Shown: positions 1 through 14,178 of the stretch, one piece after another | Position numbering within the stretch: the first letter of the stretch is position 1 | Layout of the letters: each line of letters opens with the position of its first letter | Assembly: GCA_002690755.1 (NCBI GenBank) | Contig: NZFT01000102.1 | Span: forward strand, 1-14,270 | Direction: 5' to 3' | Source of the DNA: Phycisphaerae bacterium | GTDB lineage: Bacteria > Planctomycetota > Phycisphaerae > Phycisphaerales > SM1A02 | Length of the DNA: 14,270 nt | Notes under the pieces: generated by a model | What the model was told of the DNA's origin: nothing | The model's database searches: none | Seen by the model: only the letters and a program-made list of their open reading frames with translations | Translations under genes and position numbers: made by a program

Positions 1-2859
1 GGCAAGTTCCAGTTTCAGTGCTTTGGCTGTATCGATGTAATCGAGATACTGGTCGACCAGCGCCCGTCCGCCCCGCCGGAAGAGGCTCGCGACGGCCAGC
101 AGCAGGTCATCGACCGCCACCCGCCCGGCTTCGCTCTCGAGCAGACCGGGAACCGTCTCGAGGGCCTGTTGGATCCTTTGATGGAGCCAGCGAGCGGAAC
201 TCGGCCCACGATGCAGACGCGTCTCGAGGACGATCTCCCGTCGACGCCGGGCGAACAGCTCGACCGTGGCCGAGCTCGATCCCCCGCCGCTCTGCGGTGA
301 CTCGGCCAGCAGCCGCCCGAACCGGAACGCCTCACCGGTGCGACCGAACCCGACCCGTTCCAGACGCTGCGCGGCCTCGGTGATCGCCTCGAGCGAGACG
401 GGGACGAGTCCACGCTGGTACGCGATCCCGGTCAGCACCACGTCGAGCAGACGACGATTGCCGAACTGCTGGATGACTCTCGGAAGAATCGCATCGACCA
501 GGTCCCCCGGCGTGCCGCAGTGTCGAGCCGCTTCGGACTGCAACGTCGCCGCCACGTCCGGAAGGGACGCTCGCTCGTCCGGCGGAGGCTCGGTGTTCGC
601 CACGATCGAAGTCCGGCCCGGCGTCGCGACCCGGAGTTCGGAATCGGTCGCGATCGCCCGCAGCGTCTCGATCGGATCCACGCCGAGCACCACGTCGGCC
701 TCTCCCGGCGGAATCGAGGGAACCAGCGTGTCGACCACGTCCTCCCGAGCGGGCCGGGTGAAGAGCACCTGCGACCAGGCGGATGGATTCGAGGATCGGC
801 TGGCGCCGAGATTGGCGAGTCGGACGTCGAAGCCCATCACCCGTCCGGCGAGCGCCACGAGACTCGCCGCGCCGCCCGGCGAGACCCCACGCACCCCGGC
901 GACGTGGAACCGCCAGCGTCCCCGACCGCGATGCCGGAGGGTCGGCACGGTGATTCCAAGATCCTGCATCACCGGCGTGGCGACCTGAGGACTCCGCTGT
1001 CGGACGAGTTCGGTGATCTCGAGCAGGCGACCGACCCGCAGGACGAAGGATCGTCGAAGGCGGCTCCGCACCGGTTCGAACCGGTACCGACCTTGGACGT
1101 CGTCCGGTCGGGGAAGCGAACTGTCGATGGTGGGCTCCGCGAACGCCCGCACGCCGCACCCGTCGTCGATCCGCGTCTTCACCCGCAGGAGCGGTGAGTA
1201 ACCGAGCCGATCGATCTCTTCGAGGTCCCGGGCGACGCCGCGTTCCCGCCGACGAACCACGAGGACCGAAGGGTGGGGCGCTCGAACCGCCTCACCGATG
1301 TCCTTCCGCAGCGAGACCTCGTCCTCGACCTCGACTCGACGGACCTGACCGGGGTTCTCGCCCGCCACGGGAATGGCCGCGGTCAGGAGTCGCACCGCGT
1401 CGAGCTCGTCGCCGCCCCCGTCGTCGACGAGGATGGTGACCCAGGGGCGTCCGAGATCCCGGGCCGCCGCGAGCAGCACCGCCTCCTCGAGCAACCGTCG
1501 ACGCTCGACGATCTCGACCGCGACCACGCGCCCGGTGAATCCCGCCGGTGGACGCCCGTTGATCGCCAGCGCGAGGGGCTCCTCGCCCTCCTCGACCACC
1601 CGGCGGAGCATCCGGTCGGCCGAAACGGATGCACGTCGAACCGTCTGCAGGAGTCCCCGCCCGACCTGACCGCTTCGCACCGGCACCAGTTTCGATGACT
1701 CATCGGCCGCCGAATCCTCTTCTTCGAGCGGCTCGCCCCGAGGAAGATCGAGGGTCGGCCGGATCTCCAGGAGGACGTCGCGAAGCTTGGTCGCGAGCGT
1801 GGACGGATCACGGGCGTCTCCCGGCTCGATGACCGCGTCGCTGCCGCCGGGCACGCGTCGCCACGCGACCTCCGCGACGATCTCGCCTCGGCGTCGAAGT
1901 CGTTCCGCGATCTCGATCACCGGTGCGGCGAGCAGTCCGGGGCGGGTCTCGATCACCAGCACGGTGCGTGAACGGACGAGCAGGCGTTCGATCAAGGAGG
2001 CGTCGAGCGGATTCACGAGCCCCACGTGGATCGCGGGGATCCGCCCGGTGAGGCGGGTCTCCTCCAGCACGTGACGAACCGAACGAGATGCGAGCCCCGA
2101 TGCCACGATCGCGACCGTCTCGCGTTCGCCGGGACTGGGCATCCCCATCGCCGAATCCAGTTCGAGACGACGTCCCAATCGCGCGAGATCCTCTCCACCG
2201 GTCAGCCTCGGACCGCGTCGTCGCCGCAGCGAGGCCGCGGTGTCGATGGTCTCGACGATCCGGTTGGCCCGGACCGTGATGGTGACCGCCACCGACAGCA
2301 GGGACGCGTCGACGACGATCGCGGCCGGACCGTCGGACACGTCGGCCAGCCGCGCCGCATGTTCGATCTTCAAGCGAAGGTCGTCGAGACCGGTGGTCTC
2401 GAGGACCGGGATGCCGAGACCGGCGAGCAGGGATCGTGCGGGGGTTCCCGGCGCCGCCTGGGGGTCGTCCACCGCGATCACGACCAGCCCCCGGCGGGCC
2501 GCGTCCCCGCCGCGGCCGATGGCGTCGACGGCCCGGGGGATATCGTGCGTGGCGACGATCGCGACCGCCGCACCACGATCCGCGAGCCGCCCCGCTTCGA
2601 CGAGTCTCCGCTCGGGGCTTCGTCGGGCGACGAAGGCGAGCCGGTGCCGATTCAGCACTCGCGCGATCACCGGATCCTCGGAGGCCGCGAGCAGGCGATC
2701 GAACGCCCCGCCCACGTCGACGAGGAGCCCGCCGATCACCACCTCGGATTCGAGCACGCTCTTGAGCACGATCGCGGGGGCGTCCATGAGCTCACGCCCC
2801 TCGGCGCGGTCGAACACCTCGGCGTCGACGATCGGCGAGCGTCGTGGGGCATCCAGCAC
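1..2859 (-). CDS. Indolepyruvate:ferredoxin oxidoreductase-like IorA-IorB fusion with degenerate cofactor motifs (3' end outside window)
   Basis: Reading the minus strand from GTG at 2859 gives 953 uninterrupted codons to the window edge. Order of regions: a KorA/IorA-like pyrimidine domain (about residues 25-200), a transketolase-C-like domain (about 248-320), a region where the TPP pyrophosphate domain should lie (about 390-540), a ferredoxin-like stub (about 555-580), an IorB/POR gamma domain (about 650-850, with GRTSIVANTEPPP at 748-760 and EAFRFGRLLAES at 843-854), and a C-terminal segment resembling the extension of large bacterial indolepyruvate oxidoreductases. Active relatives oxidise aryl pyruvates to acyl-CoA with TPP and Fe-S clusters. 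Here only two cysteines are visible (568 and 781), and I see no TPP motif. The GTG start is favoured by a TACAAT box 6 nt upstream. ATG at 2787, with GAGGGG 9 nt upstream, is the alternative. Family assignment is by eye and moderately sure; the activity is unknown. Confidence 0.65.
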   Translation of the reverse strand, partial: MLDAPRRSPIVDAEVFDRAEGRELMDAPAIVLKSVLESEVVIGGLLVDVGGAFDRLLAASEDPVIARVLNRHRLAFVARRSPERRLVEAGRLADRGAAVAIVATHDIPRAVDAIGRGGDAARRGLVVIAVDDPQAAPGTPARSLLAGLGIPVLETTGLDDLRLKIEHAARLADVSDGPAAIVVDASLLSVAVTITVRANRIVETIDTAASLRRRRGPRLTGGEDLARLGRRLELDSAMGMPSPGERETVAIVASGLASRSVRHVLEETRLTGRIPAIHVGLVNPLDASLIERLLVRSRTVLVIETRPGLLAAPVIEIAERLRRRGEIVAEVAWRRVPGGSDAVIEPGDARDPSTLATKLRDVLLEIRPTLDLPRGEPLEEEDSAADESSKLVPVRSGQVGRGLLQTVRRASVSADRMLRRVVEEGEEPLALAINGRPPAGFTGRVVAVEIVERRRLLEEAVLLAAARDLGRPWVTILVDDGGGDELDAVRLLTAAIPVAGENPGQVRRVEVEDEVSLRKDIGEAVRAPHPSVLVVRRRERGVARDLEEIDRLGYSPLLRVKTRIDDGCGVRAFAEPTIDSSLPRPDDVQGRYRFEPVRSRLRRSFVLRVGRLLEITELVRQRSPQVATPVMQDLGITVPTLRHRGRGRWRFHVAGVRGVSPGGAASLVALAGRVMGFDVRLANLGASRSSNPSAWSQVLFTRPAREDVVDTLVPSIPPGEADVVLGVDPIETLRAIATDSELRVATPGRTSIVANTEPPPDERASLPDVAATLQSEAARHCGTPGDLVDAILPRVIQQFGNRRLLDVVLTGIAYQRGLVPVSLEAITEAAQRLERVGFGRTGEAFRFGRLLAESPQSGGGSSSATVELFARRRREIVLETRLHRGPSSARWLHQRIQQALETVPGLLESEAGRVAVDDLLLAVASLFRRGGRALVDQYLDYIDTAKALKLELA

Positions 2860-2887: not shown

Positions 2888-3742
2888 TCAGTCGTGTTCC
2901 AGCAGTCGACGGATCGCGTCCCCCACCCCGGTGCCCGGCGGTCCGGTCCGTCGATCGGCGACCGCGATCACCCGAGGATCGGCGTTCTCCATCGCGACTC
3001 CGATGCCCGCGTTCCCCACCATGCCCACGTCGTTCAACCCATCGCCGATGGCCGCCACCGCCTCGCGGCCGACCCCCCGGCGCCCGGCGATCCGCTCGAG
3101 CATCGTCCACTTGTCGACCGCGGGATCGAACGCTTCGAGCAGGTGGATGCGATCCCCGGACACCTCGGATTCCACCACCGCCTCCCAGGCCTGCAGCAGC
3201 ACGCGATCCCCGAGCGCGGCCTGGATCTCCTCGACCACGTGACCGAGCGCGGAGCCGACCGCGGTCGTGCCGACGCGAACCGTGTGCGCCAGCGTCGGGA
3301 CGTCGGCGAGGTGTTCGACCCAGCGCGCGTTCACGTCGTGTCGTTCGAACCACCATCGCGTCGCCTCGCTGACGGTGTCGCGCCCGATCATCCAGTAGTC
3401 GCAGCCGGCCTGCGGGGCATCCTGCAGAAGATGGACGACGTGACCATGGCGACGCAGTTCGGTCGTCACCGCCACGGCGACTTCGGGATGGATCACGCTT
3501 CGTTCGAGCGTCTCACCCGTCGCCGCTTCGTGCAGCAACGCGCCGCCGGCGGCGATCATCGGGCCGGTCGCTTCGATCGGCTGAAGCGCCTCGAGCGATT
3601 CCGACCAGGATCTGCCGGTCGCGATCACGACCATCACGCCCGCGTCACGCGCCGCATCGATCGCCGCCCGATCGGTGTCGGTGACTCCCCCGCGGGTGAG
3701 CAGGGTTCCGTCGAGATCGATGGCGATGAGACTGGGCTTCAT
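2888..3742 (-). CDS. HAD-superfamily (Cof/type IIB) phosphatase
   Basis: This 284-residue protein has all four HAD motifs: IAIDLDGTLL (nucleophile D9, acid/base D11), IATGRS with T42, lysine K211 in AVDKWTML, and IGDGLNDVGM with metal ligands D234 and D238. The roughly 100-residue cap between motifs II and III is that of the Cof/YidA group, soluble Mg-dependent phosphatases acting on sugar phosphates, nucleotide-like compounds or phosphoglycolate. Which substrate applies cannot be read from sequence. The start at 3742 (MKPSLIAIDLDG) puts motif I at the N-terminus, as usual. The frame stays open upstream, but that extension runs into the divergent gene. No Shine-Dalgarno is visible. A TATGCT box at 3789-3784 is a weak -10 candidate. 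The gene is divergent from the kinase gene (97-nt gap) and lies 28 nt upstream of the oxidoreductase-like gene. Confidence 0.88.
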   Translation of the reverse strand: MKPSLIAIDLDGTLLTRGGVTDTDRAAIDAARDAGVMVVIATGRSWSESLEALQPIEATGPMIAAGGALLHEAATGETLERSVIHPEVAVAVTTELRRHGHVVHLLQDAPQAGCDYWMIGRDTVSEATRWWFERHDVNARWVEHLADVPTLAHTVRVGTTAVGSALGHVVEEIQAALGDRVLLQAWEAVVESEVSGDRIHLLEAFDPAVDKWTMLERIAGRRGVGREAVAAIGDGLNDVGMVGNAGIGVAMENADPRVIAVADRRTGPPGTGVGDAIRRLLEHD

Positions 3743-3825
3743 GGTGTGTTTCGATCGACCGGACGCGGCGTCGGGGACGTCGGAGCATACGGGATCCGCC
3801 ACGCCGGATCGCCGAGGACGCGTGG

Positions 3826-3831
3826 TACGAT
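3826..3831 (+). promoter_or_regulatory. -10-like box TACGAT just upstream of the kinase gene
   Basis: TACGAT lies 8 nt before the ATG at 3840. Transcription from it would give a leaderless or near-leaderless mRNA. No clear -35 element is seen at 16-18 nt spacing, so this is a positional suggestion only. Confidence 0.28.
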
Positions 3832-3839
3832 TCGAGGGC

Positions 3840-4841
3840 ATGACCACGGTCCCGGAAGAAACCTCGACCTCGGTTCCGGTCCCGGTCCCGGTCCCGACCA
3901 ACGACCGGCGGACGATTCTCGGCCACGCCCTCGGGCCCTTGCTCCGAAAGACCCTCGAAGGGCGGCTCGGCGAGATCCGCTGGTTCCGGACGGACTGGCA
4001 GCGCAGCGGCGCCGCGACCGGTCGGGCTCGATGGACGACGGCGACGGGCGAGGAGCTCGAGGTGGTCGTCAAACTTCCCGTGAGCGAACGGGAATTCCGC
4101 TGGCTTGGTCGACTGCAGGATGCGATCGAACCGCTTCCGGTGCCGAAACTCCTCGCATCGGGCGACCTGCTCGGTGGATACGACCTGGCCTGGGTGGTCA
4201 TCGAGCACCTGCCCTTCGGCCCCCTCGGCACGCACTGGGAAGACGATCACATCCTTCGAATGACCGAGGCTGCGGCACGCTTCCAGGCCGCAGCGGCGGG
4301 CCATCCCATCGACCGTCCGATTCGTCAGGAGGACTGGGAACGCCTGCTGAAGCGATCACGCGAGGCGGTGCGCGGCCAGAAGATCAGCCAGCCGACTCGA
4401 TGGCGAAGGACGCTCAAGTCGGTGGCCCGGCACCTCGACGCCATCGCCGAGGAGTGGCAGGGTCGCGGTCCGATCGCGTGGATCCACGGCGACCTCCACC
4501 TGGCCAACGGCATGGGCCGCGAAACGAACGGCACCGGTCCGGTGGTCCTCATCGATCTCGCCGAAGTCCGCCCCGGGCACTGGGTGGAGGATGCGGTCTA
4601 CCTCGAACGACTGCATTGGGCCCGGCCTGAACGACTCAAGGGCCGGAACCCGGTCCGACTGCTCGCCGCCGCGCGGCGCCGGCGGGGACTCGAGGTGGAC
4701 GAGGATCACCCCCGACTCGCGGACCTGCGCCGAATCCTGATCGCGGCCTGTGCCCCGGCCTTCCTGAAGACCGAAGGCCTCCCCCGCTATCTGGATGCGG
4801 CCCTCGACCATCTGGAGCGAGGCCTGCGGCGGTTCGCCTGA
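3840..4841 (+). CDS. Aminoglycoside phosphotransferase/choline kinase-fold protein
   Basis: This 333-residue soluble protein has a small-molecule kinase fold: candidate ATP lysine K78 in LEVVVKLP, the hinge-like VVIEHLPFGP (119-128), the catalytic loop HGDLHLAN (H216, D218, N223) and a metal-binding aspartate D239 in VVLIDLAEVRPG. The family phosphorylates hydroxyls on antibiotics, choline, sugars or other metabolites, and many chromosomal members are housekeeping enzymes. Nothing in the context points to antibiotic resistance, and the substrate is unknown. I chose ATG 3840 because the frame upstream (open to 3675) overlaps the divergent HAD gene and does not look like kinase sequence. The N-terminus has a low-complexity VPVPVPVP run (12-19) encoded by a hexanucleotide repeat. 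The gene stands alone; a hairpin follows it at 4867-4892. Confidence 0.82.
   Translation: MTTVPEETSTSVPVPVPVPTNDRRTILGHALGPLLRKTLEGRLGEIRWFRTDWQRSGAATGRARWTTATGEELEVVVKLPVSEREFRWLGRLQDAIEPLPVPKLLASGDLLGGYDLAWVVIEHLPFGPLGTHWEDDHILRMTEAAARFQAAAAGHPIDRPIRQEDWERLLKRSREAVRGQKISQPTRWRRTLKSVARHLDAIAEEWQGRGPIAWIHGDLHLANGMGRETNGTGPVVLIDLAEVRPGHWVEDAVYLERLHWARPERLKGRNPVRLLAAARRRRGLEVDEDHPRLADLRRILIAACAPAFLKTEGLPRYLDAALDHLERGLRRFA
3872..3895 (+). repeat. Four tandem hexanucleotide units (GGTTCC then three GGTCCC)
   Basis: The four 6-bp units encode the Val-Pro repeat (residues 12-19) of the kinase gene. Copy-number change would add or remove Val-Pro pairs without shifting the frame. Confidence 0.85.
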
Positions 4842-4866
4842 GGATCCTCCCCCATGGCCTTGAACC

Positions 4867-4892
4867 GGGGTTTTCATCATCCCGAAAGCCCC
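4867..4892. terminator. 9-bp hairpin after the kinase gene, without U-tract
   Basis: GGGGTTTTC (4867-4875) can pair with GAAAGCCCC (4884-4892) across an 8-nt loop, with one G-U pair. It sits 25 nt after the kinase stop and before the next gene's putative promoter. No T-run follows, so intrinsic termination would be weak; it may instead protect a 3' end. Confidence 0.3.
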
Positions 4893-4911
4893 TCGTACAC
4901 GGCGGCGGGCC

Positions 4912-4920
4912 TGCTACCAT
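4912..4920 (+). promoter_or_regulatory. Possible extended -10 (TGC-TACCAT)
   Basis: TGCTACCAT matches an extended -10 (TGn followed by TAnnnT) and would give a leader of about 50 nt for the gene starting at 4979. No convincing -35 is seen. Confidence 0.25.
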
Positions 4921-4964
4921 GCGGCGTCCCGAACCGTCGTCGGTCGACGGGCTGGACACCGTGT

Positions 4965-4968
4965 GGAG
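4965..4968 (+). promoter_or_regulatory. Shine-Dalgarno GGAG deciding the 4979 start
   Basis: GGAG lies 10 nt before ATG 4979. The in-frame ATG at 4919 has no such site and would only add 20 non-conserved-looking residues. Confidence 0.4.
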
Positions 4969-4978
4969 CTCCCCGACC

Positions 4979-5794
4979 ATGGACGATCGTCTCAAGCAGG
5001 TCCAGACCAGCGACCTGACCGATTCCCGCCTCAATCACGAGTTCGTCGCCTGGCTCAAGACGTCCGGCATGAACTACCTGCTCATGCTGCTGCTCGTCGC
5101 CTGCGCCTTCCTCGCATGGGACTGGTGGAACCGCAAGCAGGGCGAGGCGATCGACACGGCGTGGACCGAACTCGCGTCCGCGACCAGTCCGGCCGCCCTG
5201 CGCGGCGTCGCCCGGACCCACGCCGCCGTCGACGGCGTCGCGGAACTTTCGCTCCTCACCGCCGGTGACATCCTGCTGCAGTCGGTCAGGTCCGGCCTTC
5301 GACCCGGACTCGCCGCCGGTGACGAAGGCGCCGAACTCACGCCCGAAGACAAGGCGAAGAGCCTCGTCGAGGCGGACGCCTTCTTCGCCGAAGCGGTCGA
5401 ACTCGCCTCGGCCCGACCCGGATTCGCCGGCAAGCCCATGATGATCGCGGGCCTGTTCGGACGCGCCGCGGCCGCCGAGGGCGCCGGTCGACTCGACGAC
5501 GCCAGAACCCACCTCGAAAAGGTGGTCGAGATCTCGACGCCCGAGTATCCCCCGCTGGCCGAGCAGGCGAACGCTCGCCTCGAGAATCTCGACGGCATCG
5601 AGGCGCACGCGAGCCTTCCGAATCAGGCTGATCTCCCGGTGATCGCCGTCGGCGAGGAGGAGGCCTTCACGGTCCCCGCCGCGGACGATCTGCTCGAGAT
5701 GTTCGAGGCCGAGGACGAAGAGGCTGCGGAAGCGACTTCGGAAACCGGGGACGAAGCGGCCCCCGAGGCCACCGAGACGCCCGCGGCCCCGTGA
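4979..5794 (+). CDS. Single-pass membrane protein with TPR-like periplasmic domain (YfgM-like)
   Basis: This 271-residue protein starts with a short charged N-terminus ending in a helix (LNHEFVAWLKTSG, 18-30). One membrane span follows (about 31-49, MNYLLMLLLVACAFLAWDWW), then a mostly helical domain (about 55-205) with TPR-like periodicity (for example AGLFGRAAAAEGAGRLDDARTHLEKVVE at 157-184). The C-terminal tail (about 225-271) is rich in Glu, Ala and Thr, and is probably disordered. The order of a short cytoplasmic N-terminus, one span and helical repeats is that of YfgM-type proteins, which in enterobacteria associate with SecYEG and periplasmic chaperones. The match here is structural, not by diagnostic motif. 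The inside/outside orientation is inferred. It overlaps the pseudouridine synthase gene by 4 nt (GTGA), indicating translational coupling. Confidence 0.72.
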   Translation: MDDRLKQVQTSDLTDSRLNHEFVAWLKTSGMNYLLMLLLVACAFLAWDWWNRKQGEAIDTAWTELASATSPAALRGVARTHAAVDGVAELSLLTAGDILLQSVRSGLRPGLAAGDEGAELTPEDKAKSLVEADAFFAEAVELASARPGFAGKPMMIAGLFGRAAAAEGAGRLDDARTHLEKVVEISTPEYPPLAEQANARLENLDGIEAHASLPNQADLPVIAVGEEEAFTVPAADDLLEMFEAEDEEAAEATSETGDEAAPEATETPAAP

Positions 5795-7008
5795 CCGGCC
5801 GCGACGAATCCGACGACGTCATTCCGCCGGCGTCTCCGTCAACCCCGACGCCGGAACCCGGCGAGGGCGAGGAAGCCCCGCTGTTCGACGCCGGTGGCAA
5901 GGTGGATCGCGATGCGATCTACCGCCAGCACGAGACCCGGTCCGACGACGACACGCCGGTGCAGGTGCGGCTTGAACTGACCCGGGATCTCAAGAAGCGG
6001 CTCGACCGCTATCTCGTGGATCGCATTCCCTTCATGAGCCGGACCGCCCTGCAGCGGCTGATCGAGGAGGAAGCGGTGACCGTGAACGGTCGTCGCCCCA
6101 AGGCGAGCACGCGACTCCGGCTCGGCGACGTGGTCGAGGCGGTGCTGCCGCCCCCCCCGTCGAACGAGATCCCTCCCGAGGACATTCCGCTCGACGTCCT
6201 GTTCGAGGACGACGATCTGATCGTCCTGAACAAGCAGCCGGACATCATCGCCCACCCCGCCCGGGCCATGAAGTCCGGAACCATCGTGAACGCCCTGAGC
6301 TGGCGCTTCCGCCACCAGACGTCCGGCGGGCTCTCCACCGTCGGCGAGGAGTTCGCCCGACCCGGCATCGTCCATCGACTCGATCGGTTCACGTCGGGCG
6401 CGATGGTCGCGGCGAAGACCGACACCGCCCACTGGCGACTCGGCCATCAGTTCCAGGCCCGCACCGTCGACAAGCGATACCTCGCGATCGTTCACGGCGT
6501 GGTGCGTCGCGACCGGGATCTGATCGACCTGCCACTCGGACGTCATCCGAGGATCTTCGACCGGTACGCGGTTCGCCACGACGAGGCCGGCAAGGAGGCG
6601 CGGACCATCTACCGGGTCCGCGAGCGGTACGACGGCTTCACGCTCGTCGAACTCCAACTCCTCACCGGCCGCACCCACCAGATTCGAATCCATCTCTCCG
6701 AGATCGGCCATCCGATCGTCGGCGACGACTACTACGGCGGCCGGAAGCTCCCCCGCCGGGCGGTGGTTCCGAAGCGGGCCGAAGCCGACGGTCGATCCAG
6801 TGATGCACCACTGATGGCCCGCCAGGCCCTCCACGCGGCACGGCTGGAGTTCGATCATCCCATCGCCGGTGATCGGCGTGCCTTCGAGGCGCCGCTGTGG
6901 CCGGACGTCCGCGGCTTCCTCGATGCGCTGCGCGAACACCGCGATCCCGCGCCGGTCGAGTCGGCCGAGGCGATCGTGGACCTCGAGCCGGACGGCTCCG
7001 AGGGCTGA
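5791..7008 (+). CDS. rluD: RluA/RluD-family 23S rRNA pseudouridine synthase
   Basis: This 405-residue protein has an acidic, Pro-rich N-terminal extension (1-55), an S4 RNA-binding domain (about 60-120, LKKRLDRYLVDRIPFMSRTA) and a pseudouridine synthase domain (about 135-370). Hallmarks are PGIVHRLDRFTSG with catalytic D198, RTHQIRIH (294-301) and HPIVGDDYYGGR. The family isomerises uridines in 23S rRNA or tRNA. The S4 plus catalytic arrangement is the RluC/RluD type, and RluD (helix 69) is my best guess; the symbol is tentative. The start is GTG at 5791, overlapping the previous stop as GTGA. ATG alternatives are internal to the fold. The extension is longer than in E. coli RluD (326 residues). 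Four consecutive prolines (120-123), encoded around a C8 run, link the two domains. The gene converges on mraY. Confidence 0.88.
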   Translation: MTGRDESDDVIPPASPSTPTPEPGEGEEAPLFDAGGKVDRDAIYRQHETRSDDDTPVQVRLELTRDLKKRLDRYLVDRIPFMSRTALQRLIEEEAVTVNGRRPKASTRLRLGDVVEAVLPPPPSNEIPPEDIPLDVLFEDDDLIVLNKQPDIIAHPARAMKSGTIVNALSWRFRHQTSGGLSTVGEEFARPGIVHRLDRFTSGAMVAAKTDTAHWRLGHQFQARTVDKRYLAIVHGVVRRDRDLIDLPLGRHPRIFDRYAVRHDEAGKEARTIYRVRERYDGFTLVELQLLTGRTHQIRIHLSEIGHPIVGDDYYGGRKLPRRAVVPKRAEADGRSSDAPLMARQALHAARLEFDHPIAGDRRAFEAPLWPDVRGFLDALREHRDPAPVESAEAIVDLEPDGSEG

Positions 7009-7024
7009 TCCGCGATCGATCAGC
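7004..7024. terminator. Perfect 7-bp inverted repeat containing both convergent stop codons
   Basis: GCTGATC (7004-7010) and GATCAGC (7018-7024) flank a 7-nt loop. The left arm holds the TGA of the pseudouridine synthase gene, and the right arm holds the TGA of mraY read on the other strand. It is the only secondary structure in the 11-nt convergent gap, so it could act in both directions, though no U-tract follows either way. Confidence 0.35.
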
Positions 7025-8279
7025 GCAGCTTCACGAGGGCGAACGCCGCCATCGAAAGCACGATGGTGATCAACCAGAATCGCGTCACGACCTGTTGCTC
7101 GCTCCAACCACCGAGATGGAAGTGGTGATGGATCGGACTGCAGCGAAGGAGACGACGTCCCTTCCCGGTGCGGATCCTGGTGAACTTGAACCAGCCCACC
7201 TGCAACACCACGCTCCCCATCTCGAGGAAGAAGATGCCGCCGATCAGCACCAGCAGGGCCTCCTGGCGGATCGCCACCGCGAGGTAGCCGAGCAGACCGC
7301 CGAGCGCGAGGCTTCCGGTGTCACCCATGAAGACCATCGCCGGGCTCGAGTTGAACCAGAGGAATCCCAGGCACGCGCCGATCATCGCGCCGGCGACCAC
7401 CATCAGATCCGCGGTCCCCGGGACGTGCGGAACCAGCAGGGACTGGGCTTCGACCTGGCTTCCCGCGATGTGCACCAGGATCATGAAGGCGACCGCGGCG
7501 AATCCGACCACGCCCGCCGCGAGTCCGTCCATGCCGTCCGAGATGTTGACGGCGTTGCTGGTGCCCGCGATCACGAGGGTGCCCAGCAGCACGAACCCGC
7601 CGAGCCCGAGCACCATGACCCCGGGATTGAGGGGCAGGCCGAACATCGTCTCCTCGCCGTCGGCGAAGGGGTCGGTTTCCACGGGCGTGTCCCAGGTCTT
7701 CTGGAACGGCAGGTTGAGCACGCGGGCGGAATCCTGCCAGATCTCCGCCTGGGCACCGACGCCACCGATGGGATTGACCGTGGCCTGGGTGAAGATGACC
7801 CAGGAGAACAGCGCCGCGAGACCGAGCTGGAAGAGGAGCTTCTCCCACGGCAGCAGTCCATCCCGGGATCCGGGCGTCCGCCGCGCGGAGGTCAGCTTCA
7901 ACCAGTCGTCGAACATCCCGAGCACCGAGTACGCGACGAGCACCGCGATCGCGAGGTGGATGTAGCGACTTCGAAGTTCGGCGAGCAGCAGGATGGTGAT
8001 CAGGATCGAACCACAGATCAGGATCCCCCCCATCGTCGGCGTGCCCGCCCGGGATCGCATGAGATCGTTGAGGTCCGCGTTGTGGAACTCCGGAGAATCG
8101 CCGACCTTCTGCCGGAGCAGCCAGCGGATCACCGGGCGTCCGAACGCGAGCACCAGTCCGAACGAGACGAGCACCGCGAGGAACGCCCGGAATTCCACCT
8201 GGAAGACGACTTGCAGGATGCGGATGAGGCCGGTCTCCTCGAGCGGCCCCTTCAACGATTCCACGAGGTGATAGATCAA
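7020..8279 (-). CDS. mraY: Phospho-N-acetylmuramoyl-pentapeptide-transferase (MraY)
   Basis: MraY transfers phospho-MurNAc-pentapeptide from UDP to undecaprenyl phosphate in the inner membrane, making lipid I. The 419 residues carry RAGTPTMGG (78-86), GMFDDWLKLTS with D124/D125, NAVNISDGMDGLA (242-254), FMGDTGSLALGG with D320, and the histidine loop CSPIHHHFHLGGWSE (380-394), spread over about ten membrane spans. The start is TTG at 8279, overlapping the murF stop as TTGA. A GGGAGG 7 nt upstream supports it, and no nearby ATG offers a better choice. The protein is longer than E. coli MraY (360), partly because the loop at about 166-222 is enlarged with acidic residues; it should face the periplasm by the known topology. 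It is the last gene of the operon. Confidence 0.96.
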   Translation of the reverse strand: MIYHLVESLKGPLEETGLIRILQVVFQVEFRAFLAVLVSFGLVLAFGRPVIRWLLRQKVGDSPEFHNADLNDLMRSRAGTPTMGGILICGSILITILLLAELRSRYIHLAIAVLVAYSVLGMFDDWLKLTSARRTPGSRDGLLPWEKLLFQLGLAALFSWVIFTQATVNPIGGVGAQAEIWQDSARVLNLPFQKTWDTPVETDPFADGEETMFGLPLNPGVMVLGLGGFVLLGTLVIAGTSNAVNISDGMDGLAAGVVGFAAVAFMILVHIAGSQVEAQSLLVPHVPGTADLMVVAGAMIGACLGFLWFNSSPAMVFMGDTGSLALGGLLGYLAVAIRQEALLVLIGGIFFLEMGSVVLQVGWFKFTRIRTGKGRRLLRCSPIHHHFHLGGWSEQQVVTRFWLITIVLSMAAFALVKLR

Positions 8280-9706
8280 CCGCGAGCCTCCCAGTTTTCC
8301 AGAATCGAGACGACCACCTTGTCCAGCCCCACCGCCCGGGATCCCTTGAACAGGATCGCATCACCGACCACGACGTGCCCGGCGAGCAGCGTGATCGCCG
8401 CCTCACCGTCCGCGACCTGATGCAGCCCGCCCTCGAACCCCGCGTCACGGGCCCCGCGACCGATCGCCGCGGCGGCGTCGCCACCCACCAGCACGATCTC
8501 GTCCGACGCCTTCGCCGCCACCGCGCCCACCGCTTCGTGAAGCGACGTCGAGCGCGTTCCGAGTTCCCGCATCCCACCCAGCACCACGATCCGACGAACC
8601 GCCGCGGTCGAGATCTCCGCGAAGGTCTCGAGCGACGCCCGCATCGACTCGGGATTCGCGTTGTAGCTGTCGTCCACGATCTCGATGCCGCCCACCACGT
8701 GGCGGACGAACCGCATCGGTGGCGGCTCGAGTTCTCCGAGCCTCCGCGCGATGTCGGCGTCTGCGACCCCGAGCCGACGGGCGAGCTCCACCACCGCGAT
8801 CGCGTTGATCGCGTTGTGCCGGCCGTCGAGTCCGACGTCACCGGTGAAATCATCGAGTTCGATGATCTGTCCGCCGCCCGCCCGAACCGAACGGTTCAGC
8901 AGCCTCCGGTCGGCGGCGGTGGATTCGCCGCAGGTCACGATCGACACGCCGGCCGCCCGTCGACGGGAGATCTCCCCGTTGATCACCTCGGCATCCACGT
9001 TCACGATCGTGGTGCCGGCGTTCTTCGCCACCGCATCGATCAACGCGGCCTTCTCCGCCGCGATCGCGGCTTCCGAGCCGAACCCCCCGAGGTGGGCCCG
9101 TCCGACACCCGAGAGGATGCCGAGCATCGGATCGGCGATCCCCGCGAGCCGGGCGATCTCACCGGGTGCGTTGGTGCCGATCTCCAGCAGCACCCAGCGA
9201 TCGTCCTCGCGGGCTTCGAGGATCGTGAGCGGCACCCCGAGGTCGTTGTTGAAACTGCGGATGCTCGCGGTGCCCGGCCCGAGCTCCGCGAGAACCCGCT
9301 CCGCCATGGACCGCATCGTGGTCTTGCCGGAGGAGCCGGTGATCGCGATCACCACGCCTTGGAGCCGCCGCCGATGGGCTCGCGCGAGCGCGGCGAGGGC
9401 GGGACGGATGCTGGTGACCGCGATTCCGGGCAGCCCTTCGGGGAGCGTCCCGCCGCGATCGAGGAACGCGGATTCGACCAGCGCCGCGGTCGCTCCGGCG
9501 GCTCGCGCCGCCTCCAGATGATCGTGTCCGTCGTGACGATCCCCGGAGATCGCGACGAAGAGTCGCCCGTTCAGCGTGGCCCGGGTGTCGGTGCCGACCC
9601 CGTGCACTTCAGGATTCCCGTGATCGTGACGACCATCCCGGCCGCGGGCACCGACCGGCCGACCATCGACGATGTCGACGATTTCGACGAGACGTCTTCG
9701 AATCAA
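8276..9706 (-). CDS. murF: UDP-N-acetylmuramoyl-tripeptide--D-alanyl-D-alanine ligase (MurF)
   Basis: MurF adds D-Ala-D-Ala to the UDP-MurNAc-tripeptide in the cytoplasm, using ATP. The 476 residues include the substrate-binding N-terminal domain (GVGTDTR at about 36-42), the P-loop ITGSSGKTT (122-130), SFNNDLGVPLTIL, LLEIGTNAPGEIA and GVGRAHLGGFGS of the central ATPase domain, and DDSYNANPESMRASLE plus VVLGGMRELG of the C-terminal ligase domain. All are typical of MurF rather than MurE or MurD. The length is close to E. coli MurF (452). The start is TTG at 9706, overlapping the murE stop as TTGA, with GGGGAGG 7 nt upstream. Its own stop overlaps the TTG of mraY in the same way, so MurE, MurF and MraY are probably made in coupled amounts. 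Confidence 0.96.
   Translation of the reverse strand: MIRRRLVEIVDIVDGRPVGARGRDGRHDHGNPEVHGVGTDTRATLNGRLFVAISGDRHDGHDHLEAARAAGATAALVESAFLDRGGTLPEGLPGIAVTSIRPALAALARAHRRRLQGVVIAITGSSGKTTMRSMAERVLAELGPGTASIRSFNNDLGVPLTILEAREDDRWVLLEIGTNAPGEIARLAGIADPMLGILSGVGRAHLGGFGSEAAIAAEKAALIDAVAKNAGTTIVNVDAEVINGEISRRRAAGVSIVTCGESTAADRRLLNRSVRAGGGQIIELDDFTGDVGLDGRHNAINAIAVVELARRLGVADADIARRLGELEPPPMRFVRHVVGGIEIVDDSYNANPESMRASLETFAEISTAAVRRIVVLGGMRELGTRSTSLHEAVGAVAAKASDEIVLVGGDAAAAIGRGARDAGFEGGLHQVADGEAAITLLAGHVVVGDAILFKGSRAVGLDKVVVSILENWEARG
8287..8292 (-). promoter_or_regulatory. Shine-Dalgarno GGGAGG of mraY
   Basis: GGGAGG on the minus strand lies exactly 7 nt before the TTG of mraY, inside the end of murF. 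It is one of the strongest ribosome-binding sites in the window and decides the non-ATG start. Confidence 0.7.
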
Positions 9707-11244
9707 CGCGGCGCCTCCCCACGTCTGCGGGCGAGGGCGGCCGCCGCCACCTCCACGTCGTCGAAGTGTCGGCGTTCGGTCCCGACGATCTGGTAGTCCT
9801 CGTGCCCCTTGCCGGCGATCACGATCACGTCACCGGCGTCGGCGGTGGCGATCGCGTGGTCGATGGCCAGCGACCGATCGACCTCCGGGTGGATCCGGCC
9901 GAGGCGGTCCGCGTCACACGCCGCGACGATCTCCGCCACGATCGCCTCGGGCGCTTCGGTCCGCGGGTTGTCGCTCGTCACCACCACCCGGTCCGCGCCA
10001 TCGAGGGCGGCATGCATCATCCGAGGCCGCTTGGTGCGATCCCGATCGCCGCCGGCGCCGAAGACCACGACCAGCGCCGCATCGGGCGGGACCTCGGGCC
10101 GAACGCCGGCGAGGACGTTGACGATGGCGTCATCGGTATGGGCGTAGTCGACGAAGACGCGGATCTCATCGTCCGCACCGTGGACGGGCTGGAGCCGACC
10201 CCGGGGCGCCTTGATCGTCTCGAGGGCGTCCCGGACCGCGGACCAGCCGGCGCCGAACGAAATCGCCATCGCTGCGGCCGCCGCCGCGTTGAAGGCGTTG
10301 TGGTCGCCCACCAGCGGAACCCGGACGCGATGCGAGACCCCTTCGAAGCGGAACTCCAGCGTCATCCCCGAGAAGTCGCGATCGATGATCCGATGTTCGA
10401 GGCACCGGACGCCATCGGCGGGGACGACCTTCGATTCCGCCGGCTTCACGCCGATGACGCGCGCCGGCCCCGCCTCGAGCATGGTTCGAGACGCGGGATC
10501 GGCGAGATTGATGATCGCGGTCGCATCGGAACGAAGTCCGGCGAAGAGCCTGGCCTTCGCGGCCGCGTAGGACGCCATGTCCCCGTGGTAGTCGAGATGA
10601 TCGCCGGAGAGGTTGGTGAACACCGCGACGTCGAAATCGAGGTCCGCGACCCGCCCCTGGTCGAGGGCGTGGCTGGAGACCTCCATGACGACCCGTTCGC
10701 ACCCCGCCTCCACGAAGTCTCCGAGCACGCCGGCGAGGGCGATTCGGCCGGGGGTGGTGAGCGTCGCGGGGGTCGATTCGAGGCCGTCGTGGGTTTCGAT
10801 GGTGCCGACGAGACCGCAACGTCCCGACGTCGCAGCCAGCAGCTGGCGGGCGAGCGTCGCGACGGTGGTCTTGCCATTGGTCCCCGTGATCCCGGCGAAG
10901 TCCGTCCGTCGTTCCGGATGACCGTGAAACCGGAAGGCGAGGTCGCCACCGACCTTCGCCGGATCCGGGGTCGCGATCCCCACGGCGGATGCGGGGATGC
11001 CCGTCGCCACCGCCGGGACCGCGAGGATCGCGGCGGCCCCTCGTTCGATCGCATCGGCCACGTGGTCGCCACCGTCGTGCGACGTTCCCGGACGCGCGAC
11101 GAACAGCGTGCCCGCCTCGACGAGGCGGCTGTCCTCGGTGATTCCGGTGATTCGACCGCCGACGGCGTCCCCCGCGACGACCTGGATCGTCCCGGCGAGC
11201 GCCGCATCCTCGAGCAGGTCTCCAAGGCTCGTCTGGCGTGGCAT
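9703..11244 (-). CDS. murE: UDP-N-acetylmuramoyl-tripeptide synthetase, meso-diaminopimelate type (MurE)
   Basis: MurE adds the third stem-peptide residue to UDP-MurNAc-L-Ala-D-Glu in the cytoplasm. The 513 residues show the N-terminal ITEDSR...GTLFVA region (35-50), P-loop ITGTNGKTT (119-127), MEVSSHALDQGRV (187-199), FTNLSGDHLDYHG (209-221), a lysine (K230 or nearby, in AAAKARLF) at the carbamylated position, GDHNAFNA (313-320), DYAHTDDA and AGKGHEDYQ (477-485). DNPRTE at 425-430 is the signature for meso-diaminopimelate rather than lysine. ATG 11244 is chosen because MPRQTSLGDLL fits the family N-terminus and AGGGA stands 5 nt upstream. The frame stays open upstream to 11697, but that stretch is inside queA. 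It is the first of three coupled peptidoglycan genes, 74 nt after queA. Confidence 0.96.
   Translation of the reverse strand: MPRQTSLGDLLEDAALAGTIQVVAGDAVGGRITGITEDSRLVEAGTLFVARPGTSHDGGDHVADAIERGAAAILAVPAVATGIPASAVGIATPDPAKVGGDLAFRFHGHPERRTDFAGITGTNGKTTVATLARQLLAATSGRCGLVGTIETHDGLESTPATLTTPGRIALAGVLGDFVEAGCERVVMEVSSHALDQGRVADLDFDVAVFTNLSGDHLDYHGDMASYAAAKARLFAGLRSDATAIINLADPASRTMLEAGPARVIGVKPAESKVVPADGVRCLEHRIIDRDFSGMTLEFRFEGVSHRVRVPLVGDHNAFNAAAAAAMAISFGAGWSAVRDALETIKAPRGRLQPVHGADDEIRVFVDYAHTDDAIVNVLAGVRPEVPPDAALVVVFGAGGDRDRTKRPRMMHAALDGADRVVVTSDNPRTEAPEAIVAEIVAACDADRLGRIHPEVDRSLAIDHAIATADAGDVIVIAGKGHEDYQIVGTERRHFDDVEVAAAALARRRGEAPR
9714..9720 (-). promoter_or_regulatory. Shine-Dalgarno GGGGAGG of murF
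   Basis: GGGGAGG lies 7 nt before the TTG of murF, inside the end of murE. Site and spacing match the mraY site almost exactly. Confidence 0.7.
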
Positions 11245-11249
11245 GCGTT

Positions 11250-11254
11250 TCCCT
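11250..11254 (-). promoter_or_regulatory. Shine-Dalgarno AGGGA of murE
   Basis: AGGGA on the minus strand lies 5 nt before ATG 11244, in the otherwise featureless 74-nt gap after queA. It favours 11244 over the upstream in-frame starts. Confidence 0.5.
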
Positions 11255-11318
11255 GTTGCTGTCGATGTTGCATCGGCCACACGCGGCCGTCGACTGGAAT
11301 CGAATGATCGGTCGATGA

Positions 11319-12500
11319 TCAGGCGATGCCCCGTCGCACGAACATCGCATCGCCGTAACTGAAGAAGCGGTATCGCGCCTCGATCGCCGCCGCGTAGATC
11401 GCACGGGTTCGATCGAGACCGGTCATCGCCGCGACCAGGGCGAGGAGCGTGGAACGCGGCAGGTGAAAGTTGGTCAGCATCGCATCCACGCGGCGGAATC
11501 GATGCCCCGGTTGAATGAGCAGATCCGTCCGCCAGGCATGCCGACCGTCGACCAGGGCCGGGAGCCGGTCGACGGGGGCCATCGACTCCAGGGTCCGCAC
11601 CGCGGTGGTCCCGACCGCCACCACCCGTCCGCGTCCGGCGGCTCGATCCACTTCCGCCCGCCCGATCGCGGCAGCCGCTTCGGGCGTGACCAGACACCTT
11701 TCCTCGTGCATCGGGTGGCGGTCGAGTTCCTCCACCTCCACCGGCTTGAAGGTTCCGGCACCCACCTCGAGCGAGATCCGGATCTCCTCGACCCCTCGAT
11801 CTCCGAGCCGACGCCGGAGTTCATCGGTGAGATGCAGGCCGGCCGTCGGTGCCGCCACCGAGGCGGTTGGATCCGAGGCCGCGGCGAACGTCGTCTGATA
11901 CCAGTCCGGATCGTGCGGATCCGACTCGGGCAGGCCGCGGTCACGGCGAGCGTGCAGGATGTAGGGCGGCAGCGGGATCTCACCCGCGTCCGCTCGAAAG
12001 GCCTCGACGGTCGCCTCGTCGATCGGTGCGTCGGCGGCGGTCCCGGTTCGAAGATCGACGAGGCCGACCAGAACCCGCCCGACATCGTCGGTGTCCTCGA
12101 CCCGAAGCCGGAATCCCGTCGAATCACCGTGGCGATCGAGGACGTCGATCTCGTGGCCCGGGCGGAGACGACGGCTCTTGCGAAGCATCGCCCACCACCG
12201 GCCGAGCCCCGCGGACTCGGCCAGGAGCCCCTCGAGTCCCCCGCCGGTGTCGATGCGGCGACCCCGAATGCGAGCGGGCACCACCTTCGTCTCGTTGAGC
12301 ACGAGGCGGTCGCCGGCCCCGAGGTACTCGGGAAGATCCGCGATCCGGCGATGTTCCAGATCGAATGAGGCACCGTCCTCGAGTTCGGCCGGGGGCAGCG
12401 TGACCACGAGCATCCGGGCCGAATCCCGCGGCGAGACCGGCGCGGTCGCCACCAGGGCGGGATCGAGTTCGAAATCGAGTTGGTCGGTTCGGAGCCCCAT
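11319..12500 (-). CDS. queA: S-adenosylmethionine:tRNA ribosyltransferase-isomerase (QueA)
   Basis: QueA transfers and isomerises the ribosyl group of S-adenosylmethionine onto preQ1-modified tRNA, giving epoxyqueuosine at the wobble position of His, Asp, Asn and Tyr tRNAs. Family hallmarks are all present in the 393 residues: RDSARMLVV near the N-terminus, LVLNETKVVPARIRGR, PTAGLHLTDELRRRL, LEVGAGTFKPVEVE, HPMHEE, GTTAVRTLES, DAMLTNFHLPRSTLL and the C-terminal YRFFSYGDAMFV. It is a little longer than E. coli QueA (356). ATG 12500 gives the expected N-terminus (LRTDQLDFELDPALVA); no Shine-Dalgarno is seen. It starts 11 nt after the metalloprotein gene stop, so it is co-transcribed with def-fmt, and a 74-nt gap separates it from murE. 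Confidence 0.96.
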   Translation of the reverse strand: MGLRTDQLDFELDPALVATAPVSPRDSARMLVVTLPPAELEDGASFDLEHRRIADLPEYLGAGDRLVLNETKVVPARIRGRRIDTGGGLEGLLAESAGLGRWWAMLRKSRRLRPGHEIDVLDRHGDSTGFRLRVEDTDDVGRVLVGLVDLRTGTAADAPIDEATVEAFRADAGEIPLPPYILHARRDRGLPESDPHDPDWYQTTFAAASDPTASVAAPTAGLHLTDELRRRLGDRGVEEIRISLEVGAGTFKPVEVEELDRHPMHEERCLVTPEAAAAIGRAEVDRAAGRGRVVAVGTTAVRTLESMAPVDRLPALVDGRHAWRTDLLIQPGHRFRRVDAMLTNFHLPRSTLLALVAAMTGLDRTRAIYAAAIEARYRFFSYGDAMFVRRGIA

Positions 12501-12511
12501 CGGAACGGATG

Positions 12512-13195
12512 CTACCCGGCGACGGGCGACATCCCCCCGGTCCCGGGCGTCGGCGCGACGGCCACCGTCGGATCGGCGAGCAAGGCCGGGCCGCGAACCT
12601 CCTCCAGGAGGGCCGGCAGGGGCTCGACTTCGCGGGATCTCGGTTCGAGGAAGGGAACCAGTTCACCGGGGAGTCGCTTGAGACCACGCCGCCTCGCCTT
12701 GGCGATCGCGTAATGGAGGGACTCGTCCCGCCGCCGCCGAACCGCCTCGGTGACGTTGAATCCGAGTTCGAGCATCGTCTCGAGCGACCAACGCCAGGCG
12801 TGATACTCCTCGAGGCACCGCGGACGGTAGGTCCCGAGGCCGATGGCATGGTGACCCACCTCGTGAAGGAACACCGCGCAACTCATCGGTCCCCGAGGCC
12901 TCGGCGACTCGATCAATCTCGCCACGCTCCCATCCCCATAGGCGACGGTCCAGGCGCACCCGGACGTGCTCGATCGCCAACGAACCACGCGCAGTCCGTA
13001 TCGCCGCTTCATCGACGCGACGAGCGCCTCGTACTTCGCCTGCTGCCCGCCGCGAGGTCGCGTGGGCGACGACGAGGCCCTGCCGGCGGTGACCGCCGGT
13101 GGCTTCTTCTCGTCCGTCCGCGATGCGTGGAGGAGATCCCAGAGCGTGGTCGCGAAATCGCCGAGACTTCGACGGATGGGACCACGCGCACTCAT
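12512..13195 (-). CDS. Uncharacterised HExxH zinc-metallopeptidase-like protein
   Basis: I do not recognise a named family. This 227-residue protein has a basic, low-complexity N-terminus (to about 50) and a compact core from QQAKYEALVASMKRRYG (51-67). At residues 108-120 it has VFLHEVGHHAIGL, a HExxH motif (H111, E112, H115) that in metallopeptidases binds zinc. LEEYHAWRWSLE (128-139) follows, with E129/E130 placed to be the third ligand. The spacing and hydrophobic pattern recall ImmA/IrrE-like or minigluzincin domains, but this is by eye. There is no signal peptide or membrane span, so it is probably cytoplasmic. The start ATG 13195 overlaps the fmt stop as ATGA. The frame is open upstream to 13270, but that part lies inside fmt. 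The context among def, fmt and queA suggests a role in protein maturation or translation, which is inference only. Confidence 0.78.
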   Translation of the reverse strand: MSARGPIRRSLGDFATTLWDLLHASRTDEKKPPAVTAGRASSSPTRPRGGQQAKYEALVASMKRRYGLRVVRWRSSTSGCAWTVAYGDGSVARLIESPRPRGPMSCAVFLHEVGHHAIGLGTYRPRCLEEYHAWRWSLETMLELGFNVTEAVRRRRDESLHYAIAKARRRGLKRLPGELVPFLEPRSREVEPLPALLEEVRGPALLADPTVAVAPTPGTGGMSPVAG

Positions 13196-14178
13196 CGGTC
13201 GCCATCGCCCCCGAGCGGCTTGAGACGGGTTCCCCGGGGGAACGACCGGCCACGACGAAGGTCGTCCCACGCCATCGCCCGCCCGCCCGGGATCTGGACC
13301 TCCAGCAGTCGGACGCCGCCGATCCGACAGGCGACCGTTCCGTCCTCGAACAGGGTTCCGGGCACGGCGTCGAGGTTCTCCACTCGCGCCTCGACCCGGT
13401 GGATCCGAAGCCGATGCGACGTTCCGTCCGGCTCGATCGCCTCCACCTGACAGCCCGGCCAGGGAACGAGCCCGTGGATCCGACCCCGAACCCGGTCCGC
13501 CGGTCGATCGAAATCGACGGTCGCCTCCGCCTTCGAGAGCTTCGACGCCGCGGTCACCGCCGCTTCGTCCTGCACGTCGGATTCGACCTTTCCCGCCGCG
13601 AATCGATCGAGCACTTCCAGCACCGCGTCCACGCCGAGGACCGCGAGTCGGTCATGAAGCTCCCCCGCGGTCTCTCGCGGATCGATCGCGGTCGCTCGCG
13701 TCGCGTGAACCTCGCCGGCATCCATCCGGCTCGCGAGGGAGATCACGCTGACCCCGGTCTCCGCGTCGCCGGCCATCATCGAACGGTTGATCGGCGCCGC
13801 CCCTCGCCATCGAGGCAGGAGCGACGCGTGAAGGTTGACCGCGAAGCGGCCGTCGAGCAGCCCCGGCCCGAGCTTCTGTCCGAACGCGATCACCACCATC
13901 GCATCGATGTGGTGCCGGTCCAGTCGTTCGACGACCGTCGCTTCGTTGGCGTTCTCGGTCCGAATCAGTTCCGTTCCGGCGAATCCGCCGCCGGTCACGT
14001 CCTCGAGGATCCGGGCCGAGATCGGCGTCGGCGTCTCTTGGCGGCCCCGACCCGCGGGCCGATCCGGTTGCGAGATCACCAGCGGCACCTCGAACCGACG
14101 CCCCAGCGCCTCCAGCGTCGGCACGCCGAACGCGCCGGATCCGAGAAATGCGATTCGCCGCCGGGCGTCGTCGGTCAT
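13192..14178 (-). CDS. fmt: Methionyl-tRNA formyltransferase (Fmt)
   Basis: Fmt formylates Met on initiator tRNA with 10-formyl-tetrahydrofolate. The 328 residues match the usual length of about 315. Visible motifs are IAFLGSGAFGVPTLEAL (9-25), QPDRPAGRGRQ (37-47), VVIAFGQKLG (95-104), and the active site NLHASLLPRWRGAAPIN (115-131) with N115 and H117. The third catalytic residue D153 in ASRMDAGEV lies 36 residues after H117, as in E. coli. A C-terminal OB-like tRNA-binding domain follows (about 210-315), including IHGLVPWPGC. ATG 14178 overlaps the stop of the upstream deformylase gene as ATGA, with GAGGA 9 nt before it (14192-14188). Its own stop overlaps the metalloprotein start in the same way. 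Confidence 0.95.
   Translation of the reverse strand: MTDDARRRIAFLGSGAFGVPTLEALGRRFEVPLVISQPDRPAGRGRQETPTPISARILEDVTGGGFAGTELIRTENANEATVVERLDRHHIDAMVVIAFGQKLGPGLLDGRFAVNLHASLLPRWRGAAPINRSMMAGDAETGVSVISLASRMDAGEVHATRATAIDPRETAGELHDRLAVLGVDAVLEVLDRFAAGKVESDVQDEAAVTAASKLSKAEATVDFDRPADRVRGRIHGLVPWPGCQVEAIEPDGTSHRLRIHRVEARVENLDAVPGTLFEDGTVACRIGGVRLLEVQIPGGRAMAWDDLRRGRSFPRGTRLKPLGGDGDR

Follow-up and report, generated by a model that had tools for sequence, protein, structure and literature searches.

The window considered here is a 14,270-nucleotide stretch at the start of contig C100 (NZFT01000102.1) of a Phycisphaerae bacterium, and it opens inside a gene for a homologue of the large fused indolepyruvate:ferredoxin oxidoreductase (IOR) that lacks the cofactor sites of that enzyme. 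The gene appears as a 953-codon open reading frame (ORF) at 1..2859, which lies on the minus strand with a GTG start at 2859 and is cut by the contig end, running off the start of the window. The window contributes the 5' ~940-944 codons; the full-length protein has 1111 residues, as read from the overlapping contig C70 (G000:C70, protein L003) and from the near-identical protein P0001. The open frame of 953 codons described in the initial annotation does exist, and only its placement needs amending, the strand being minus and the window holding only ~85% of the gene. The genome (3.47 Mb in 133 contigs, 88.8% complete) matched the gene twice. Between window bases 41 and 7648 the sequence agrees with C70 (region 39430-47533) at 99.9% identity, a 7.6 kb overlap, and we therefore take the two matches as one gene, with C100 and C70 as redundant pieces of one locus; a second genomic copy, or paralogue, was rejected on the same grounds. 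The final ~10 codons of the ORF (approximately bases 1-40) depart from C70 and look like contig-end sequence; by this comparison they are foreign to the gene.

The relationship to IOR is detectable only with NCBIfam models or with profiles. A Pfam scan of the window protein returned nothing, even at E 5, and no Pfam family exceeded its cut-off on the window protein or on P0001. Among NCBIfam models, PRK13030 (large indolepyruvate ferredoxin oxidoreductase, E 1.8e-16) and IOR_alpha (E 6e-6) matched the ORF, with scores far under the curated cut-offs (59 versus 816 bits for PRK13030). A protein search yielded 35 relatives, 32 of them 1055-1139 residues long, whose legible names all read "hypothetical protein". 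With the 621-residue fragment P0030 excluded beforehand, the remaining 34 formed an alignment (A1) in which every member matched PRK13030 at E <= 0.01, and in which an IOR_alpha stretch was recognized in 27 and an IOR_beta stretch in nine at the same threshold. When compared by hhalign with a second alignment (A2) of 19 canonical IORs from the window's class, the family matched over 1033 columns with a probability of 100 and E 6e-82. This whole-length homology exceeds chance, as judged by profile comparison, and it bears out the fused IorA-IorB-like layout that had been claimed from the sequence. The canonical protein L017 carries PF02775, PF01558 and PF20169 (DUF6537), each over its cut-off. 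Of these, PF01558 reaches a best E of 0.0069 among the 34 aligned relatives, passes its cut-off (27.5-34.7 bits) on the homologous protein of at least 17 other genomes of the window's family, and is present as a precomputed annotation on P0005 and P0032. A search of PDB sequences gave a single match at E 0.22, which we took as chance.

The protein shares its domain order and whole-length homology with the large fused IORs (PRK13030/PRK13029; PF02775, PF01558, PF20169), and about half of their near-invariant residues in the gamma and C-terminal regions are kept in the window's family; unlike them, it lacks the catalytic glutamate, the GDG...N motif, the CPGCPH motif and the cluster motif. The IOR_alpha and IOR_beta stretches of its relatives are recognizable from the two-subunit enzyme IorA/IorB (TIGR03336, TIGR03334), whereas the window protein is fused, bears a C-terminal extension and is cofactor-less. 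Identity to pyruvate:ferredoxin oxidoreductases (for example 7plm, 6cin and 1b0p) is ~10%, and the ligands of those enzymes are absent. We are close to certain that the protein descends from a fused IOR and that its cofactor sites are gone.

Domains I and II (residues ~17-371; 1747..2811, minus strand) correspond to the pyrimidine-binding and transketolase-C-like folds of 2-oxoacid:ferredoxin oxidoreductases (OFORs), with the GYPGSP loop and the catalytic glutamate lost. They are followed by a shrunken domain for binding the diphosphate of thiamine diphosphate (TPP) (residues ~372-540; 1240..1746, minus strand), in which ERRRLLEEA stands in place of GDG...N. The segment aligned with L017 396-610 measures 121-171 residues in the window's family, against 211-248 in canonical forms. 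A former ferredoxin segment comes next (residues ~541-640; 940..1239, minus strand), from which the CxxCxxC...C...C...C pattern has gone. The gamma domain (IorB, PF01558-like; residues 641-855; 295..939, minus strand) is among the best-kept regions, and the C-terminal region (residues 856-~940; 41..294, minus strand) continues beyond the window, aligning with the canonical region that ends in DUF6537. The predicted fold retains domains I and II, the shrunken TPP domain and the gamma domain; on this prediction, domains I and II and the TPP domain are of the OFOR/transketolase-like kind.

To place these losses among relatives, motifs were tabulated over an alignment of 104 proteins, from which the partial sequences L080, L121, L122 and L126 were excluded. 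The rows were grouped by the motifs themselves, "canonical" meaning that the motifs were seen, and the counts accept GDS in place of GDG as well as variant residues next to the glutamate and the cysteines. The GYPGSP loop, the glutamate of NNEA, CPGCPH, GDG...N and the ferredoxin cysteine motifs are absent in 48/48 rows of the window's family (f1). They are intact in 41 of the 56 aligned relatives outside it (15/15 rows from other families of the class, 7/7 from family f3 and 19/28 from family f4), the remaining 15 being altered or eroded; the GYPGSP loop and the NNEA glutamate occur in all 22 rows from the other class families and f3. That the cofactor residues might lie in a different register was considered and ruled out, since the sites are absent in register in the alignment to intact relatives and none was found shifted. 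The window ORF contains exactly two cysteines, at residues 568 and 781. The first (L003 numbering) aligns with the opening cysteine of CxxCxxC, a column that holds cysteine in 38/48 family rows; the columns of the remaining cluster ligands are not cysteine in the family. The missing TPP motif, the loss of the iron-sulphur (Fe-S) site and the count of two cysteines thus stand as initially annotated, with the addition that one cluster-cysteine position survives.

Conservation is distributed unevenly over what remains. We compared 315 canonical near-invariant columns, counting a column as kept when the majority of the window's family retains it. Kept columns number 34/110 in domains I and II, 7/86 in the TPP domain, 5/35 in the ferredoxin segment, 31/56 in the gamma domain and 15/28 in the C-terminal region, the last two together making 46/84. 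The glycine-rich loop of the gamma domain, GVGGMGIG in canonical forms, mostly reads G-x-R-G-x-x-P-G in the family, Arg657 being a new near-invariant residue in place of glycine; a further change in this domain is asparagine to Asp806. In all, 21 of the family's 61 near-invariant positions are new relative to canonical IOR, among them R84, E233, R292, R296, E449, D550, H652, R657, W695, E720, R803 and D806, and some place charged residues where G, V and N had been fully conserved. Each of the four regions has some of them (7, 2, 8 and 4), the eight in the gamma domain giving an uncorrected p of 0.035. Such residues might form a new active site, the old pocket or the gamma cleft having been refitted for a reaction that needs no cofactor or a different one. 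The charged replacements fit this idea, as does the retention of an 1100-residue protein, which suggests more than an adaptor. The scatter of the new positions and the shrinkage of the TPP-domain segment speak against it, and in Pfam and NCBIfam only IOR-type families match strongly, with no other kind passing its cut-off. We consider a new enzyme unlikely, roughly a one-in-five prospect.

The lost chemistry might also be supplied from elsewhere, the protein then belonging to a 2-oxoacid oxidoreductase complex in which separate genes provide the TPP and Fe-S subunits. OFORs do occur as separate subunits in other organisms, and roughly 60 of the 181 genomes of the window's family hold a separate PF01558 protein, many in ~640-residue frames (PF01558 exceeds its cut-off in 78/181, and at least 17 of these owe the match to the eroded protein itself). 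The window's genome, at 88.8% completeness, gave no match to PF01558 or PF01855 at E <= 1 and none to the canonical TPP plus ferredoxin segment, and so no second, complete IOR. PF02775 matched only one kind of frame, of 579 residues and on two contigs, and with that exception no candidate for a TPP subunit was found there. PF01558 matched in 0/8 genomes of the genus at E <= 0.01, and the canonical TPP plus ferredoxin segment in 2/181 family genomes and 0/104 good ones. As alpha, TPP and gamma folds are all present in the eroded protein already, we regard a role as one subunit of such a complex as very improbable. In the two family genomes where the segment did match (L217 and L218; G342 and G374), it falls in another IorA-like frame, of 1175 and 1165 residues and with a GDSTF motif, that stands beside the eroded protein.

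The gene is maintained. It is held by 170/181 genomes of the family, 102/104 good ones and 44/45 genera, mostly with one match each, and the family forms a clade with support 100/99. Across the phylum, 8 of 294 sampled genomes matched A1 at E <= 1e-20, all in the window's class. The ratio of nonsynonymous to synonymous substitution rates (dN/dS, by Nei-Gojobori) is 0.065-0.093 in seven close pairs, three of which share L003, and 0.080-0.130 in the middle domain, which lost the TPP site; some dS values exceed 1 and are near saturation (L176/L172, the most distant pair), so those ratios are rough. Decay towards loss would account for the vanished thiamine and ferredoxin motifs, the shortened TPP domain, the stops in a few metagenome copies and the many genomes of the order, such as the f2 genomes listed, that have no match. 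Against this stand the low dN/dS in all seven pairs, the near-complete census of good genomes and the fact that long, stop-free open frames make up most of the matches listed. A pseudogene was rejected on the dN/dS and the census, in line with the initial annotation, and a gene nearing loss has only the slimmest chance of being the explanation. By the sequence evidence, the catalytic residues are lost from a gene under strong purifying selection, as defines a pseudoenzyme.

Erosion is not confined to the window's family. There are three eroded groups, each eroded differently: f1 (48 rows), f5 (6/6 rows) and genus g25 within f4 (4 rows). Five further f4 rows (L022, L089, L100, L103 and L105) have altered TPP-site motifs and intact cluster cysteines, and are possible living intermediates of the erosion; altered f4 examples are GTPGAP with RHER and GDAAYF, GYPRGP with GAATF, and GCAGAP with GDGAF. 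Trees were built on subsets, a careful one of 39 rows and a quick one of 66. Every eroded group is a well-supported clade, and in the careful tree all eroded rows fall on one side of a branch with support 98/95, beside the partly altered f4 forms; the quick tree agrees, with long-branch warnings. Identical replacements shared between groups amount to 10/119 for f1 and f5 (14.8 expected), 20/120 for f1 and g25 (15.5 expected, p 0.10) and 19/121 for f5 and g25 (13.9 expected, p 0.06), and thus appear not clearly above the shuffled expectation. The tree and the shared-replacement test disagree, and either a single origin followed by graded erosion or repeated erosion in parallel may be the history. 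If canonical fused IOR already had a second, non-catalytic function in this order, several lineages could have dropped catalysis independently while keeping that function. The three different erosions and the replacement counts agree with this, whereas the 98/95 branch uniting all eroded rows favours one origin, subject to the long-branch caveat; we hold the idea of an older second function to be a real but doubtful possibility, somewhat ahead of a new enzyme.

Two fusions were noted among these relatives. Beside the eroded IOR of g25 (L042:11764-15222; also L021, L085 and L090) lies a 1153-residue frame in which 2-oxoacid dehydrogenase E1 alpha and beta, a lipoyl domain and beta-ketoacyl-ACP synthase III seem to be fused; its start adjoins the gene in 3/4 g25 genomes, and none was seen in L093, where ~1 kb downstream was read. 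In the intact f14 IOR L028 (1577 residues), an apparent FAD/NAD-linked oxidoreductase part follows in frame. P0131 (1578 residues) carries PF14691 and PF07992, other f14 frames reach 1872 residues, and such a fusion may pass electrons to NAD(P).

The evidence suggests that the IOR homologue now does a different job. The family derives, in all likelihood, from a fused IOR that many relatives in the class still have. The classical reaction, ferredoxin-linked arylpyruvate oxidation, needs the catalytic glutamate, the Mg/diphosphate site and the clusters; as these are missing, it presumably cannot run, and TPP/ferredoxin chemistry would be impossible for the eroded protein. What selection preserves would instead be the protein's shape together with a surface for binding, with the gamma and C-terminal regions at its centre. 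We infer a binding or scaffold role in the gamma domain because constraint persists there and in the C-terminal region, and because 8/21 new near-invariants lie in it. That the protein is a pseudoenzyme kept for a role without TPP we hold with considerable confidence. Pseudoenzymes in general, kinase-like and others, keep a fold under selection after their catalytic residues are lost; we know of none in the 2-oxoacid:ferredoxin oxidoreductase superfamily, and a literature search, in which subscription journals were mostly uncovered, returned nothing on cofactor-less IOR, DUF6537 or OFOR pseudoenzymes. The case is one of an OFOR-derived pseudoenzyme of 1100 residues, present almost throughout a single family of aquatic planctomycetes, mostly as a single copy, with purifying selection seen in every domain tested and with relatives in the same order spanning intact, TPP-site-altered and fully eroded forms. 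It opens the question of what a multi-domain metabolic enzyme offers the cell once its chemistry is lost and, since the gamma/DUF6537 half survives best, that of the role of this half in large IORs.

A possible partner lies immediately upstream. A gene for a Cof-type HAD-IIB phosphatase (2888..3742, minus strand; PF08282, E 1e-33) precedes the IOR homologue by 28 bases on the same strand; TIGR00099 scores 109 bits on its product, under the 137-bit cut-off. Neighbours were counted by tblastn at 91 loci (80 in named genome records, 11 in the genome set); some genomes contribute twice, and some loci have short flanks. A Cof-type HAD gene lies upstream in 80/91 loci, 69 on the same strand and 11 on the opposite one. 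At 61 of the 69 same-strand loci a possible start codon falls between -10 and +60 bases from the HAD stop, and at 26 it overlaps that stop by four bases. This arrangement suggests that the two genes share a transcript, and the phosphatase is the most likely operon partner. Our best guess is that the protein would serve the phosphatase as a ligand-sensing or scaffolding partner, its remodelled gamma cleft binding a phosphorylated or acyl ligand in place of TPP.

Taken as a whole, the reading of an IOR-derived pseudoenzyme family that serves as a HAD-linked sensor or scaffold has, in our estimate, a probability of about 0.6. Several observations weigh against it. Other neighbours are about equally constant, namely genes we take to be RlmN (downstream, opposite strand; 80/91), IspH (76/91), a TPR-like gene (upstream; 73/91) and the hopanoid genes HpnC/HpnD (downstream; 56/91), and conserved synteny alone may explain the HAD link. 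The block is syntenic throughout, and for that reason close linkage does not prove an interaction. The HAD gene is inverted in the 11 opposite-strand loci. In G167, a genome in a single contig, none was found within ~7 kb of the IOR homologue, and several of the other 10 loci lacking one have flanks too short for a verdict. As for the two further eroded groups, the genes read next to their IOR are not HAD-like, a HAD-protein search not having been made there. Within the protein, a cysteine persists at position 568 in 38/48 family rows, and the 21 new near-invariants could equally be a new active site. Stops occur in a few family copies among the matches listed (one TGA in G350, one TAG in G433, four TGA in G438 and one TGA in G299), and at 88.8% completeness the absence of other OFOR genes from the window's genome is not proven. 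Partnership with the phosphatase, taken separately, is tentative and rather unlikely. Less probable still is a family-wide regulator in which the gamma cleft, through the Arg657 loop, would sense an acyl or phosphorylated metabolite and control the phosphatase, having arisen in this planctomycete order by stepwise erosion of the TPP site before the Fe-S site, with intermediates of the process still alive today.

Beyond the phosphatase, the genes at 2888-14178 of the window encode an APH-like phosphotransferase, an unassigned ORF at 4919-5794, a pseudouridine synthase, an MraY-like transferase, two Mur ligases, a QueA-like queuosine synthesis protein, an unassigned ORF at 12515-13270 and a formyltransferase. 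In domain scans of the neighbours inside the window the TPR-like ORF matched nothing. Two predicted relatives, P0033 and P0035, have N-terminal extensions of ~280 residues that resemble, by eye, the frame antisense to an inverted HAD gene, and these are presumably wrong start calls.

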